From positions 2,107,027-2,171,026 of the forward strand of contig CM044962.1 in assembly GCA_024516035.1 (NCBI GenBank): 64,000 bases of DNA, written 5' to 3'. The notes under the pieces are model-generated. The model searched no databases, was not told where the DNA came from, and saw only the letters and a list, made by a program, of their open reading frames with translations. This document shows, in pieces, positions 5,201 through 14,200 of the stretch. The position numbers were made by a program, and so were the translations under genes. Origin of the DNA: Bactericera cockerelli. Its lineage: Eukaryota > Arthropoda > Insecta > Hemiptera > Triozidae. The stretch's first letter is position 1, and each line of letters begins with the position of its first letter.

Positions 5201-8200
5201 CAACTGAAAATTACATAATAAAATTTTAAAAAAAAAAACAATTACTACATGCTATTATTTGCAGTGCCACAAAAAAATTTCCCCCCATTTTTCTTCTTCT
5301 TTTTCCTTTCTATTTTTTTATTTTTATATATATAAAATATAAACTGAATTATATTTCTTTAAAAAATATTCGGAAAGAGCTGATTTTTTTCGTTTCTTAT
5401 TTTCCCCCACCTGGCAGAGGCCCGAGTTGTTGAGTCGGAAGAAGCGCCCAATCTCGCACGAGTTCACATCACAGCCTCGCTTGGGCATCATGCCTATGCC
5501 GCGCTGGGGGTCTGGGGTCTGGAACTGTTTGATGTAGTGCACGAAGGGGGGCTCGGCCGTGATCTCGAAAGTAGCGGATGACGGAGTCCACCCTGTAGAT
5601 AAAATAAAATAATTTTTTGTAGCGGATGACGGAGTCACCCTGTAGATAAAAAAAAATAATTTTTTGTAGCGGATGACGGAGTCCACCCTGTAGATAAAAT
5701 AAAAAATTTTTTGTAGCGGATGACGGAGTCACCCTGTAGATAAAATAAAATAATTTTTTTGTAGCGGATGACGGGTCACCCTGTAGATAAAATAAAATAA
5801 TTTTTTTGTAGCGGATGACGGAGGTCACCCTGTAGATAAAATAAAATAATTTTTTGTAGCGGATGACGGAGTCACCCGTAGATAAAATAAAATAATTTTT
5901 TGTAGCGGATGACGGAGTCCACCCTGTAAGTAAAATAAAATATTTTTTGTAGCGGATGACGAGTCACCCTGTAGTAAAATAAAATATTTTTCTTACTATT
6001 ATTATTTATCATATCGCACCCCTCAGAATTAGATGGTGATATGTCAAAAATCATGAATTTTTTTTTTATTAACTCTATCGAAATAAGCGAAACGAGACCT
6101 TTCGTTTGTATAAGAATTTATAATTCTAGCCCTTACCGTTCCCGAGATAGCAATAGTGGTTGTTTATTGATTTATGTCGAAAAAAGTGGAGGGAGGTTGG
6201 AACAAGATGGTATTACGATCAGTTGTTACAAGAGCTCATTGGATCGAGACGTACAGTTCTTGGAATTTAGTGATATTTGCGTAAATTTTGATTTATCACT
6301 CTCTTTATTAAATTTTATTTTCTATTAATTGACAAAAAAACTGAATTGTGCATGATTTTTTTGAAATATCACTCTCTTTGTCGAATATTTTTTTTTTTTT
6401 TGATTTTGTCAAGGTAGAAATTACTAATACAAAAGATTATGTTATATTACTTTCTTTATAAATTTTTTATTATTTTTTTGGACTTAAAAATAATCTGGCC
6501 CGGTATTTTCGATGTACACTTGAGAGCAATAAATTCGGGACAGGACATTTTCACCGTTTCAGTTGGTCCTGGTCAATTTGTGTGGCATGAAGTTGTTAAA
6601 GTATGCATATATTTGAAAACTTGTATTCATACCTTTCAGAAAATACACAATGTGTCCGGGTTTATGTACTATGCAACAATGATAATGGCCAACTTTCCAG
6701 AAAACACCTCATTTTGTTGATGAAAACACGTGCACCGAGGGTATTTTAAATTTGATTTTTTGTTGTGATAACGCTTTTTTTGGCCAGTAAATTATTGATT
6801 TTCCTTAAATGCAACACTATGAGGAAGGAAATTCAGTTGAATTTTTTCTTTCAAATCCATGGAGACATCGCAACTCCATAGCTGTGAAAGTGGTTTTACT
6901 TGTGAGTCAAGGTGTTAAGCAAAGAAATGTTGCTAAGGAACTAAATTTGTCGAAGTCTAAGGTGAACAGAATTTACCAAAGGTATTGGCAGACAGGTAGC
7001 TATGATCAGAGACCAGGATCTGCCAGACCAAAGAAGACAACTGCCGGAGGACCGATTTGCTGTCATGACAAGCTTAAAAATCGAGACATGTCTGGTGTTG
7101 AGGTCCAACAGCAGCTTGTTATGGCCACTGGTGTTGATGTTAGCCCTTGGACAGTAAAGAGACCTTGAAAAAAGAAAAGGTCTCATACCAAGAAGAAAAG
7201 CTACGGGACCCAAACAACAAACAGACAACACCGACAACGTCATTTACAATTTGCCCTTCAACACCGCTGATTGAGGAAATGGGGAATGGGGGCACGTTCT
7301 GGTCCACGGATGAGAGCCGACCCTGCTTGTTCTTTCAATTACAGACGTAAAAGGGTGTATAGAAGACCAGGTGAACGTATTAAATACAATGTTTATATTC
7401 AAGAAACTGTGAGTTTTGGTTTAGGATCTTGTATCTTCTGGGGTGGAATCTCTATGGAAACTAAAAACAGAGCTCATTATCATCAATTGTGGAGGACAAG
7501 GAGGTAACCTAAATGCAGAGAGGTATGTCACTGACATCATTGAAGATCATGTTGTCCCTTATGCAGGTTTTGTGGTTGATGGATTCGTTGTTTAATGCAA
7601 GACAATGCCCGAACCCGTACAGCACGTATTTGTAAGTGACTTTCTCCAAGAGGCCGGTATTCGAACCCTCAAACTGGCCCAGCCAGCAGTCCTGATCTTA
7701 ATCTTATTGAACACCTCTGGGACGAGCTTAAAAGACGTGTCCATGCTCGAAACCCCGCCCCCAATGAACCACAGGGACCTGAAACAGGCGCTTTATGAGG
7801 AGTGGGAGACTATCGATCAAGAAACGGCTGCCAACCTAATCAAGTCCATGAAAATCGATTGCAGGCTGTCATACAAGCTCGAAGGGGGTAATACCAGATA
7901 CTAAGAGGTAAGTAACAGCCAAATTTCCATGAAGACTTCGAAGAAATAACACAAAAACACCGATATCATTTTGCAGTGTTTTCATGCTCTTTAGACCTCT
8001 TTTTTGTTATTTGACTTATTATATTAAAAAACATGCTCAACAATGAAAAAAAAATATACAACCGTCTTAAAACCAACAAAATTTCCTTTCTTGGGATACT
8101 TCACACTTGAAAATCCAATCTTATATTTTTATAAAAGAAAGCTGTCTGTATGTATGTATGTGTGTATGTATGTATGTGTGTATGTATGTATGTGTGTATG

Positions 8201-11200: not shown

Positions 11201-14200
11201 TAGACAGTGCATCCGGAACCGTTTAACTAGAATAACTAGAAATTAGGTCTACCTTGCCACAGAGGTAGACTAGATTAATTTGTTCTGGGCTTAATAGCTT
11301 CTTATAAAACTTTGCTCTTATAAGATTTTCTATTATTATTATTAATTATAAATAAGGTCTACCTTGCCACAGAGTGACTAGATTAATTTGTTTCTGGGCT
11401 TAATAGCTTCTTATAAAACTTTGCTCTTATAAGATTTTCTAATTATTATTATTAATTAGAAATAAGGTCTACCTTGCCACAGAGGTAGACTAGATTAATT
11501 TGTTCTGGGTAATAGCTTCTTATAAAACTTTGCTCTTATAAATTTTCTATTATTATTATTAATTATAAATAAGGTCTACCTTGCCACAAGGTAGACAAGA
11601 TTAATTTGTTCTGGGCTTAATAGCTTCTTATAAAACTTTTGCCCTTATAAGATTTTCTATTATTATTATTAATTATAAATAGTGTCTACCTTGCCACAGA
11701 GGTAGAACTAGATTGATTATAAGTAAGGTCTATCTTGCCAACAGAGGTAGACTAGATTAACTAGAAATAGGTCTACCTTGCCCACAGAGGTAGACTAGAT
11801 TGATTTAGAAATAAGTCTACCTTGCCACAGAGGTAGACTGAATTTATTTTGTTCTGGGCTTAATAGCTTCTTATAAAACTTTGCTCTTATAAGATTTTCT
11901 ATTATTAATTATTAATTTATAAATAAGGTCTACCTTGCCCAGAGGTAGACTAGATTGATTATAAGTAAGGTCTATCTTGCCACAGAGGTAGACTAATTAA
12001 CTAGAATTAAGGTCTACCCTTTGCCACAGAGTAGACTAGAATAATTAGAAATAAGGTCTACCTTGCCACAGAGGTACACTAGCTAGATTGATTAGAAATA
12101 AGAACTTATTTTCTTTCTACCCAAAGTTAACCAAACGGGAATAAAATGAACCAAACTGGAAGCAAGTCATTTTTCTTTTGGAAGGGGAAAAAAATTTCTT
12201 CCAAAGTTAACCAAAATGGAAGTAGAAAATTCTTGCTTCCAGTTCCTTTATAGGTTTAAGTCCATTGTTGATCTTTAAAAGTACCGTTACGCATTTTTCT
12301 TTCACGAATGTGGTGAAGTTGACCTTGGAAAAATGGAAATATTTGGAAATATCGAACCTGGAATTTTTTTTTTCTAGATTAATTAGAAATAAGGTCTACC
12401 TAGCCACAGAGGTAGACTAGGATTTAACTATGCATAAGGTCTACCTTGCCACAGAGGTAGACTAGATGATTATAAATAAGGTCTACCTTGCCACAGAGGT
12501 AGACTAGATTGATTATAAATAAGGTCTACCTTGCCACAGAGGGTAGACTAGATTAACTATGCATAAGGTCAACCTTGCCACAGAGGTAGACTAATTAATT
12601 AGAAATAAGGTCCTACCTTGCCACAGAGGTAGAATTAGATTGATTAAAAAAAGGTCTACCTAGCCACAGAGGTAGACTAATAACATGGCATAAGGTCTAC
12701 CTTGCCACAGAGGTAGACTAGATTGATTATAAATAAGGTCTACCTTGCCACAGAGGTAGACTAGATTGATTATAAATAAGGTCTACCTTGCCACAGAGGT
12801 AGACTAGATTAACATGCATAAGGTCTACCTTGCCACAGAGGTAGACAAGATTAACTAGAAATAACGTCTACCTTGCCACAGATGTAACTAGATTGATTAA
12901 AATAAGGTCTACCTTGCCACAGAGTAGACTAGATTGATTATAAATAAGGTCTACCTTGCCACAGAGGTAGACTAGATTGATTATAAATAAGTCTACCTTG
13001 CCACAGAGGTACACTATTATGATTATAAAGGCCCTATTTTTTTTGGATTAAATTTTTCTTCCAGGTTTCGATATTTCCAAATATTTCCATTTTATTCCAA
13101 GGTCCAACTTCACCACATTCGTAAAAGAAAAATGCGTAACGGTACTTTTAAAGATAAAGAAAACAATGGACCTTAAGCAATAAAAGAACTGGAAGCAAGA
13201 ATTTTCTACTTAAATTTTGGATAACTTTTTCCCCTCTTCCAAAAGAAAAATGACTTGCTTCCAGTTTTGGTTTCATTTTATTTCCCGTTTGGTAAACACT
13301 TGGTTAAAAAGAAAAATACGGCTTAAGTAAGGTCTACTTAAGCCTGAAAAGTAAATCCTGAAAAGTACACCCCGTACTTAAGAGAACAGGATAGACCATG
13401 ATGTTATTTGAATGCATAATAAACCATTATTATTATTATTGTTATTATTACTACCTTGCCACAGAGGTAGACTAGATTAATTTGTTCTGGGCTTTAATAG
13501 CTTTACTTATAAAACTTTGCCCTTATAAGATTTTCTATTATTATTAATATTAACTAGAACTAAGGTGTACCTTCCACAGAGGTAGACTAGATTGGTGTCG
13601 GGGTCGTACAGCGGGAACAATGACGCCGTTGCTCGTGTCCAGCTCCACCATCACAATGGGCTCGTCCAGATGGTCAGGGCCCGCAGCGAGTACTGCCGCT
13701 CCGACAATCTTACTGAACCCGGTGGTGAAGATCAGGCCTGACTTGAGGTGATGGCGCGCGTCGCCTTGGAGCCCTCGTGACACACGGCCTCCTGAGGACG
13801 AAAGACAATGGTTTCAGTGAAGGTAAAGATAAGTCTGACTGGGGGACTATAAACAGGGAGTAGACCAGCATTGGCTTGGTTCTGGGGGCCCTTGTCAATT
13901 ATTAGTCTCCTTGTGAAGACAGTGGTAGAAGAGTTGAGTCATTCTCCACTGTCTGGCTACCATCGTTCACGATGACCCCACCCTATGATGATGAAGATAA
14001 GATAAGAATAACTTTTATTTGGTATTTTCGCCACGAAGGCATTCCAATGGTCAGTACAATACAATAAAAATACAAAAAATACAAAAAAAAAAAAAATAAA
14101 AATTACAGAACATCATTTTTACTATTGTTTTTTCCATTTTTAACCAATGATGATAGTATTCATCTTTGGTATATGGCGATATTTCCAGCAAGAGATCACT

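Follow-up and report, generated by a model that had tools for sequence, protein, structure and literature searches.

About one-fifth of the exon-intron borders examined in the genome of the psyllid Bactericera cockerelli are copied into the neighbouring intron, sometimes dozens of times. The window, the whole 64,000-nucleotide stretch of DNA that was analysed (contig CM044962.1), carries on its minus strand a gene identified as coronin by its match to PDB coronins (best E 1.3e-28), whose exons were mapped by tblastn with the same-species coronin protein P0001 (Table 1).

Intron 4 of this gene starts with 41 copies of the exon-4 donor junction, located between about 10591 and 13586, and ends with nine copies of the exon-5 acceptor junction, both by edit-distance count. 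The same kind of search found no copy of the exon-4 donor core elsewhere in the window, and 20 shuffled donor cores gave no matches in the exon-4 array stretch. Each exon-4 unit consists of the end of the exon plus the donor, with blocks of units interrupted by other sequence, and the 47 bp exon-5 unit joins the final 26 bp of the intron to the first 21 bp of the exon. These results agree with the original prediction, which had described arrays of roughly 40 and 9 copies with units of 43–48 bp (TRF gave 43 and 47 bp) over a span, 5411–13791, that fits the boundaries of exons 5 and 4. The exon-1 donor bears a third array, which contains 10 cores including the real junction; all of its units carry the exon 1 end and GTAAGT, and some also hold inserted repeat sequence. 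TRF unit sizes were 21–285 bp at coronin and 26–95 bp in the junction sample described below, and some copies were non-adjacent. By eye, some of the spacers between copies look SINE-like.

Table 1. Coronin exons and junction arrays in the window.
Feature	Position	Strand	Basis
Coronin exon 1, residues 1-66, seed of exon-1 donor array	26122..26319	-	tblastn with P0001, 66/66 residues identical
Exon-1 donor array, intron 1, units ~93-285 bp	24007..26121	-	TRF, sequence
Coronin exon 2, approximate, frameshifted in window copy	17170..17438	-	tblastn, sequence
sno exon-6 acceptor array piece, reversed, inside coronin intron 2	16761..17110	-	blastn
Coronin exon 3, approximate, frameshifted in window copy	14964..15155	-	tblastn
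Coronin exon 4, seed of donor array	13571..13791	-	tblastn; boundaries from sequence
Exon-4 donor array, 41 copies, 43 bp unit	10591..13586	-	edit-distance count, TRF
Exon-5 acceptor array, 9 copies, 47 bp unit	5571..5991	-	edit-distance count, TRF
Coronin exon 5, seed of acceptor array	5411..5592	-	tblastn; boundaries from sequence
Coronin exon 6, approximate, edges without visible array	4060..4200	-	tblastn fragment, sequence
Coronin exon 7, approximate, noisy; no array in TRF list	2122..2281	-	tblastn, TRF

The scaffold holds two coronin copies, the noisier one in the window and a cleaner one, copy A, approximately 130 kb away, which share 67–91% identity over long aligned stretches within the gene. 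All three junctions with arrays in the window also carry arrays in copy A, and one acceptor is expanded in both copies with units of different length (47 bp in the window versus 21 bp). Array counts in copy A are lower bounds, obtained with a fuzzy regular expression that returned 20 and 6 copies in the window versus 41 and 9 by edit distance. Because the window copy is noisy, with frameshifts and stops in its coronin exons, small differences from unit to unit within it are unreliable.

Comparison of paired assembled versions, which are presumed to be alleles or haplotypes, revealed differences in copy number at all four array loci compared, most clearly in a case of seven copies versus one, and at two of the four loci one version was single-copy. 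The junctions carrying arrays are ordinary exon edges of their genes, and the splice site is unchanged in the single-copy versions. Founding breakpoints shared 0 and 1–2 bp of sequence when inspected by eye. With tandem units of roughly 10–100+ bp and a copy number that differs between paired, presumably allelic, copies, the arrays have the properties of minisatellites or VNTRs. The single-copy second versions at these two other loci support tandem duplication across an exon edge, one of the origins proposed for the coronin arrays; another, intron gain, was not seen, as the introns stay in place and gain only copies of their own edges. The noise of the window copy and the duplicated and inverted pieces of its scaffold might point to misassembled noisy long reads as the source of the arrays, but we consider such an artefact extremely unlikely, since arrays are present in clean copies too and on many scaffolds, their copies differ from one another, some with inserted sequence, and paired versions differ in number as described.

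For the junction survey, we sampled 40 exons from kinesin, myosin, and kinase genes, one per gene by coordinates and with 500 bp per side, from source lists of 85 kinesin, at least 77 myosin, and at least 134 kinase matches. The exons, mostly short open frames, were hand-picked from these lists before their sequences were seen, with at least one match containing stops skipped and a few such matches included; for L040, repeated matches to one and the same domain portion were already evident in the list before picking. A simple score was used to place the junctions; two were corrected by hand, a few placements are doubtful, and two of the 80 junctions were dropped as low-complexity, leaving 78 assessable. 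The myosin locus L029/L030 was excluded from the counts because it had been chosen for repeated matches.

An extra junction copy was found nearby at 17 of the 78 junctions. Random intronic points drawn from the same sides, array interior included, averaged 6.6, and none of 20,000 draws reached 17 (P = 5e-5). One of the 17, the L054 acceptor, is probably a false junction, and the real L054 donor array was missed, so that the corrected number is again 17; the weakest positives are the L065 and L070 acceptors, with one distant copy each at 86–88% identity. Donors and acceptors were both among the affected junctions, and 8 of 32 junctions were positive in the sno gene, whose best protein matches are from psyllids. 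The units seen include the splice-site core with at least 7 bp of intron, and their exonic part is as long as 147 bp. The intron with arrays at both edges that had been singled out in coronin is real but not special to that gene, as such copying recurs at about one-fifth of the sampled junctions.

The copy rate was highest at the junction itself, with 22% positives versus 2% (50/2421 points) where the side lacked a junction repeat. Repeats in introns away from junctions, represented by these 50 points and by several TRF rows, are compatible with a survivorship effect. Short tandem duplications would then form anywhere, and a junction would merely make them more visible, since its exonic copy does not change, whereas intronic ones decay on both sides. 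We regard this effect as improbable: the excess expected from it would, by our reasoning, be about twofold, far from the observed difference, and many array copies are near identical, hence young.

Grouping by exon GC3 quartile gave 0, 3, 6, and 8 positives of 20 junctions, GC3-rich exons being the most affected. In seven intron-poor kinase genes, none of 14 edges had an array, in a control that was not matched for GC, in which intronlessness was deduced from one domain-spanning open frame and a single repeat located within a coding end did not enter the count. Together with the maximum of the copy rate at the junction and the splice-site core, with its minimum of intron sequence, in the observed units, this absence (GC unmatched) would suit a splicing- or transcription-coupled process that targets duplications to splice sites as such, for example through nicking or R-loop formation at the border, or through reverse transcription of pre-mRNA fragments protected by the spliceosome, with reinsertion close by. 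Such a process is unlikely in our judgement, though the least so of the alternatives considered here, because the longest units extend well past the spliceosome footprint and a dependence on exon GC3 is no obvious prediction of it. A hairpin or cruciform at the junction, suggested as a trigger by a few cases seen by eye, was also considered but not supported, as no difference was observed in MFE (P = 0.86), z-score (P = 0.72), or stem length (P = 0.71).

Genome-wide searches with three patterns (coronin exon 4, sno exon 6, and sno exon 15) placed each of them at a single site or a few sites, all on scaffold C8. Across the 565 Mb assembly, an exact 24-mer of the exon-4 array matched 24 times, and every match lay at one of the two coronin copies; the sno exon 15 pattern occurred in two places, both on one scaffold, and the sno exon 6 pattern in one 355 kb stretch only. 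Each array is built from the edge of its own gene, and none of the three patterns behaved as an introner, that is, as one family across unrelated genes. The sno exon-6 piece within coronin intron 2 showed 77–87% identity to C8:2181–2184 kb by blastn and was absent from the sequence at the same place in copy A. This piece, the appearance of the spacers mentioned above, and rolling-circle elements, reportedly enriched in psyllids (PMC12203342, in its accessible part), would be in keeping with a mobile element, Helitron or introner-like, that spreads splice-site sequence; the confinement of every searched pattern and the derivation of each array from its own gene's edge argue against it, and we give it very little credence.

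P0001 matched the clean copy A without differences in the exons seen and contained each array junction once. Judging from this one same-species protein, the decoys are ignored in splicing at coronin, which settles for this gene only whether decoys are ignored or used; the outermost splice site is presumably used in other genes as well. The splice dinucleotide was intact in 206 of 210 decoy copies, compared with 182 expected. This retention would be expected if the arrays were functional, for instance as clusters of U1/U2 sites that make exons easier to recognise or protect introns against premature polyadenylation. Selection on the decoy sites was rejected, however, because a per-position profile showed neighbouring positions to be about as conserved, so that the dinucleotide is not singled out; array-free versions also exist and both donors and acceptors are affected, and a function of this kind is hardly credible.

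We moderately favour the interpretation that the arrays are young, locus-private minisatellites, founded by short duplications straddling a splice junction, tolerated through use of the outermost site, born preferentially at the edges of GC3-rich exons, and originating in repair. A short local duplication would take the final stretch of an exon, from a few bp to ~150 bp, together with the first intron bases on the donor side, or the intron end with the exon start on the acceptor side, and the duplicate would land in the intron next to the original. Further duplication or unequal exchange may then enlarge the array, sometimes to dozens of copies. The outermost junction, the first donor or the last acceptor, would remain intact and in use, and therefore the decoys would leave with the intron; arrays would be tolerated because only this site is spliced. 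Births would favour the edges of GC3-rich exons within AT-rich introns, and the likeliest mechanism may be break repair or template switching at the step from GC-rich exon to AT-rich intron, the exon presumably being the best conserved stretch common to two diverged haplotypes. Support for this interpretation comes from the arrays, the junction excess, the difference in number between paired copies, the GC3 association, and the single-copy coronin protein, and the repair mechanism is our proposal. The GC3 association does not establish that repair or recombination is responsible; codon use linked to expression could give the same pattern. Under a plain GC-step model, arrays would likewise be expected at the edges of the intron-poor kinase genes, where 0/14 were found with GC unmatched.

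Several known systems resemble these arrays in part, as described in the accessible portions of the respective reports. Variable internal tandem repeats modify human genes in segmental duplications and likewise have minisatellite units of tens of bp (PMC2812944), but they concern a limited set of primate-specific paralogues in which exon or intron length is changed, whereas here ordinary single-locus genes keep both exon and intron and gain junction copies. Intron gain by tandem genomic duplication also involves a tandemly duplicated segment with splice-site sequence (PMC3443670, PMC4974935); there, a doubled exonic AGGT yields a new intron, whereas here an existing junction is multiplied within its own intron and none is added. 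Introners place repeats with splice sites in many genes of one genome (PMC9860276), but a single sequence family is copied between genes, unlike arrays made of their own locus sequence. The 38-bp TERT VNTR6-1 is a polymorphic intronic tandem repeat with units of comparable size, ~40 bp, but the accessible part of its report places it within the intron and contains no description of it as exon-edge sequence (PMC11830802).

A mutational preference for exon-intron borders is indicated, and we found no earlier description of it, nor of junction-centred arrays across a genome, in the literature searched, to which subscription papers were mostly external. Splice-site choice is usually studied with minigenes carrying two competing sites. 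The arrays offer a natural test bed, with dozens of near-identical donors or acceptors in a row and, at some loci, single-copy second versions as controls, so that proximity and exon-definition rules should be readable from ordinary RNA-seq. They are potentially also a store of duplications for shifted exon ends or new introns, and gene prediction is at risk in such genomes because exon ends are repeated. The chances seem to us about even that duplication targeted to splice junctions is an ongoing process in this lineage, with the exon-intron border itself, not the intron generally, as the favoured birthplace of minisatellites; if so, it would have touched about one-fifth of junctions and left versions of genes with one or dozens of near-identical competing splice sites.

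The original prediction that both edges of coronin intron 4 are expanded into tandem arrays was borne out, with 41 donor-junction copies arranged in blocks at the start of the intron and 9 acceptor-junction copies at its end. The claim that the repeat units are about half exon and half intron also held, the units measuring 43 bp (exon 4 donor) and 47 bp (exon 5 acceptor). The exon 4 donor core had no match elsewhere in the window, and shuffled cores had none within the array stretch. A third array was found on the exon 1 donor, with units of about 93–285 bp and 10 cores including the real one; the remaining coronin junctions in the window showed no array on inspection by eye or, in the case of exon 7, have none in the TRF listing.

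Coronin features in the window
Feature	Position	Strand
Coronin gene	26319 down to at least 2122	minus
Exon 4	13571-13791	minus
Exon 4 donor-junction array	about 10591-13586	
Exon 5	5411-5592	minus
Exon 5 acceptor-junction array	5571-5991	

Other elements were also observed in the window. Two inverted, foldback-like stretches (12100-12360 and 13030-13330) were seen by eye around one block of the exon 4 donor array, and intron 4 contains a broken frame at 6809-7901 that we take to be Tc1/mariner-like transposase. Copies of a dispersed GCTGGGGGACTATAAACAGGGAGTAGACCAGC-type repeat, some of them in tandem, occur at 745-1740, 13840-13900, and 60846-60919, as well as in two of the sampled loci (L057 and L066). 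Coding pieces at 56401-60658 on the plus strand resemble ribosomal protein S6 with an Ala/Pro/Lys-rich extension.

A second, cleaner coronin copy (copy A, C8:1980341-2001828) lies on the same scaffold, C8, as the window (C8:2107027-2171026 of a 565 Mb assembly), within a region that is present in duplicate; aligned pieces of over 500 bp are 67 to 99.9% identical. The window copy is the noisier one, with stops and frameshifts in its exons. Gene pairs on one scaffold were also seen for several other genes; we infer that such pairs are unpurged haplotypes, with true local duplications as the alternative. Across C8:1950001-2211026, which includes the window, two versions of one stretch stand side by side, one with raw-read-like noise, and they look like unpurged haplotypes, which would inflate gene counts. 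Noisy pieces of sno (strawberry notch) at C8:2059028-2074667 and C8:2046932-2053893, in inverted and direct orientation, adjoin the clean sno copy, which suggests that parts of the scaffold are misplaced.

Copy A carries arrays at the same three junctions as the window copy: the exon 1 donor (6 or more cores), the exon 4 donor (12 or more cores, then a 5 kb run of N that must contain exons 3 and 4), and the exon 5 acceptor. The exon 5 acceptor unit in copy A, repeated at least 16 times, was 21 bp long with just 5–6 bp of exon, whereas the 47 bp unit in the window includes 21 bp of exon, indicating separate expansions of the same acceptor. Under a strict test, 1 of 10 junctions in copy A was positive (exon 4 being in the gap); the exon 5 acceptor failed because its unit has too little exon.

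It had further been proposed that the extra junction copies (decoys) must be either ignored or used in splicing, and for one coronin product they are ignored. The same-species coronin protein P0001 (509 aa) derives from spliced RNA, since its source contig is at most 2.7 kb. It matches every exon available in copy A, barring residues forced by one exon 2 frameshift and alignments entering introns, and contains each coronin junction once; thus, the decoys are skipped in this product at least, regardless of which copy encodes it. According to textbook exon definition, the splice site adjoining the exon is the one used. Splice dinucleotides were intact in 206 of 210 decoy copies but were kept no better than neighbouring positions, giving no indication that decoys are selected for or against.

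To sample other genes, 40 exons, one per gene, were drawn from listed kinesin, myosin, and kinase matches so as to avoid picking, with 500 bp on each side. The junction-centred 24-mer had at least one further copy within the fetched stretch at 17 of 78 assessable junctions, and the corrected set included 10/40 positive donors, 7/40 positive acceptors, and 14/40 positive exons. As a control, each junction was swapped for an intronic point chosen at random on its own side at a distance of 40–450 bp, with points inside arrays allowed. With as many as 4 mismatches tolerated, the control mean was 6.6 compared with 17 observed, a value never reached in 20,000 draws (P=5e-5); the corresponding values were 7.2 and 17 at up to 5 mismatches (P=5e-5), and 6.05 and 13 at up to 3 (P=1e-4). 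By position, the copy rate was 22% at the junction itself. A shift of 10 bp gave 17% on the exon side and 14% on the intron side; the rate was 2.7% for points 90 bp inside the exon and 5–15% deeper into the intron. Among 273 positive intronic control points, 223 were on sides with a repeated junction; on sides without one, 50/2421 points were positive, as were 29/793 exon-internal points. The matched extent covered 5–147 bp of exon plus at least 7 bp of intron.

A myosin-head search yielded one locus in which a single segment of the domain was matched repeatedly. In one version of this locus, two exons in a row bear acceptor arrays, with units of 75 bp and 155 bp; the other, in which only the second exon was fetched, has a single acceptor at that exon together with a donor array of five copies. 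Between copies of a myosin acceptor unit, a (CTATT)n run has expanded to about 1.2 kb (L029:1472-2709). In sno, whose closest relatives were those of the psyllids Cacopsylla melanoneura and Diaphorina citri, exons guided by the psyllid protein P0121 showed junction copies at 8 of 32 assessable junctions. Exon 15 had 44 donor decoys at 34 bp intervals plus 4 acceptor decoys, and after exon 13 the end of that exon recurs 23 more times, mostly every 82 bp; arrays seen by eye at the exon 11 donor and exon 14 acceptor failed the strict test or were unscored as copies.

Paired copies were fetched for six loci, four with arrays and two lacking junction copies. Acceptor copies numbered 7 vs 1 (L042/L085), 3 vs 1 (L049/L088), and 3 vs 7 (L067/L086) between versions, and donor copies 3 vs 6 (L067/L086) and 6 vs 10 (L057/L087, where the extent of the fetched sequence limits the counts); the paired versions of the two comparison loci also lacked junction copies. 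Founding breakpoints, read by eye from single-copy versions, shared 0 and 1–2 bp of sequence.

In the assembly, the coronin exon 4 24-mer occurred in the two coronin copies only. The sno exon 15 pattern was present at its own exon and at C8:2450605-2451547, a putative other sno copy, and the exon 6 pattern was confined to C8 between 2066 and 2422 kb, a range that includes a site at C8:2420396-2421575; this site and the second exon 15 site are perhaps yet another sno copy. A reversed piece of the sno exon 6 acceptor array lies in coronin intron 2 of the window copy (16761-17110) and is absent from copy A, indicating that an array piece can move.

Exons with positive junctions had higher GC3 (mean 0.83 vs 0.64, P=2e-4; per exon P=8e-4), and positive junctions by GC3 quartile numbered 0, 3, 6, and 8, each out of 20. 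High GC3 can stem from GC-biased gene conversion, and hence recombination, or from expression-linked codon use. Hairpin potential did not differ between positive and other junctions. Seven intron-poor kinase genes, unmatched to the sample in GC, had copies at 0/14 edges.

By structure and variability, the junction arrays are minisatellites with a birthplace bias toward exon-intron borders, a bias of which no description was found in the literature searched. Repeat cases at exon-intron boundaries are on record for human paralogues (PMC2812944), and tandem duplication is recognised as one way in which introns are gained (PMC3443670); that route adds an intron, whereas the arrays described here add none. 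The data favour a process truly aimed at splice junctions but fall short of proof, because the effects of exon GC and of detectability coincide there; if true, such a process would be a new kind.
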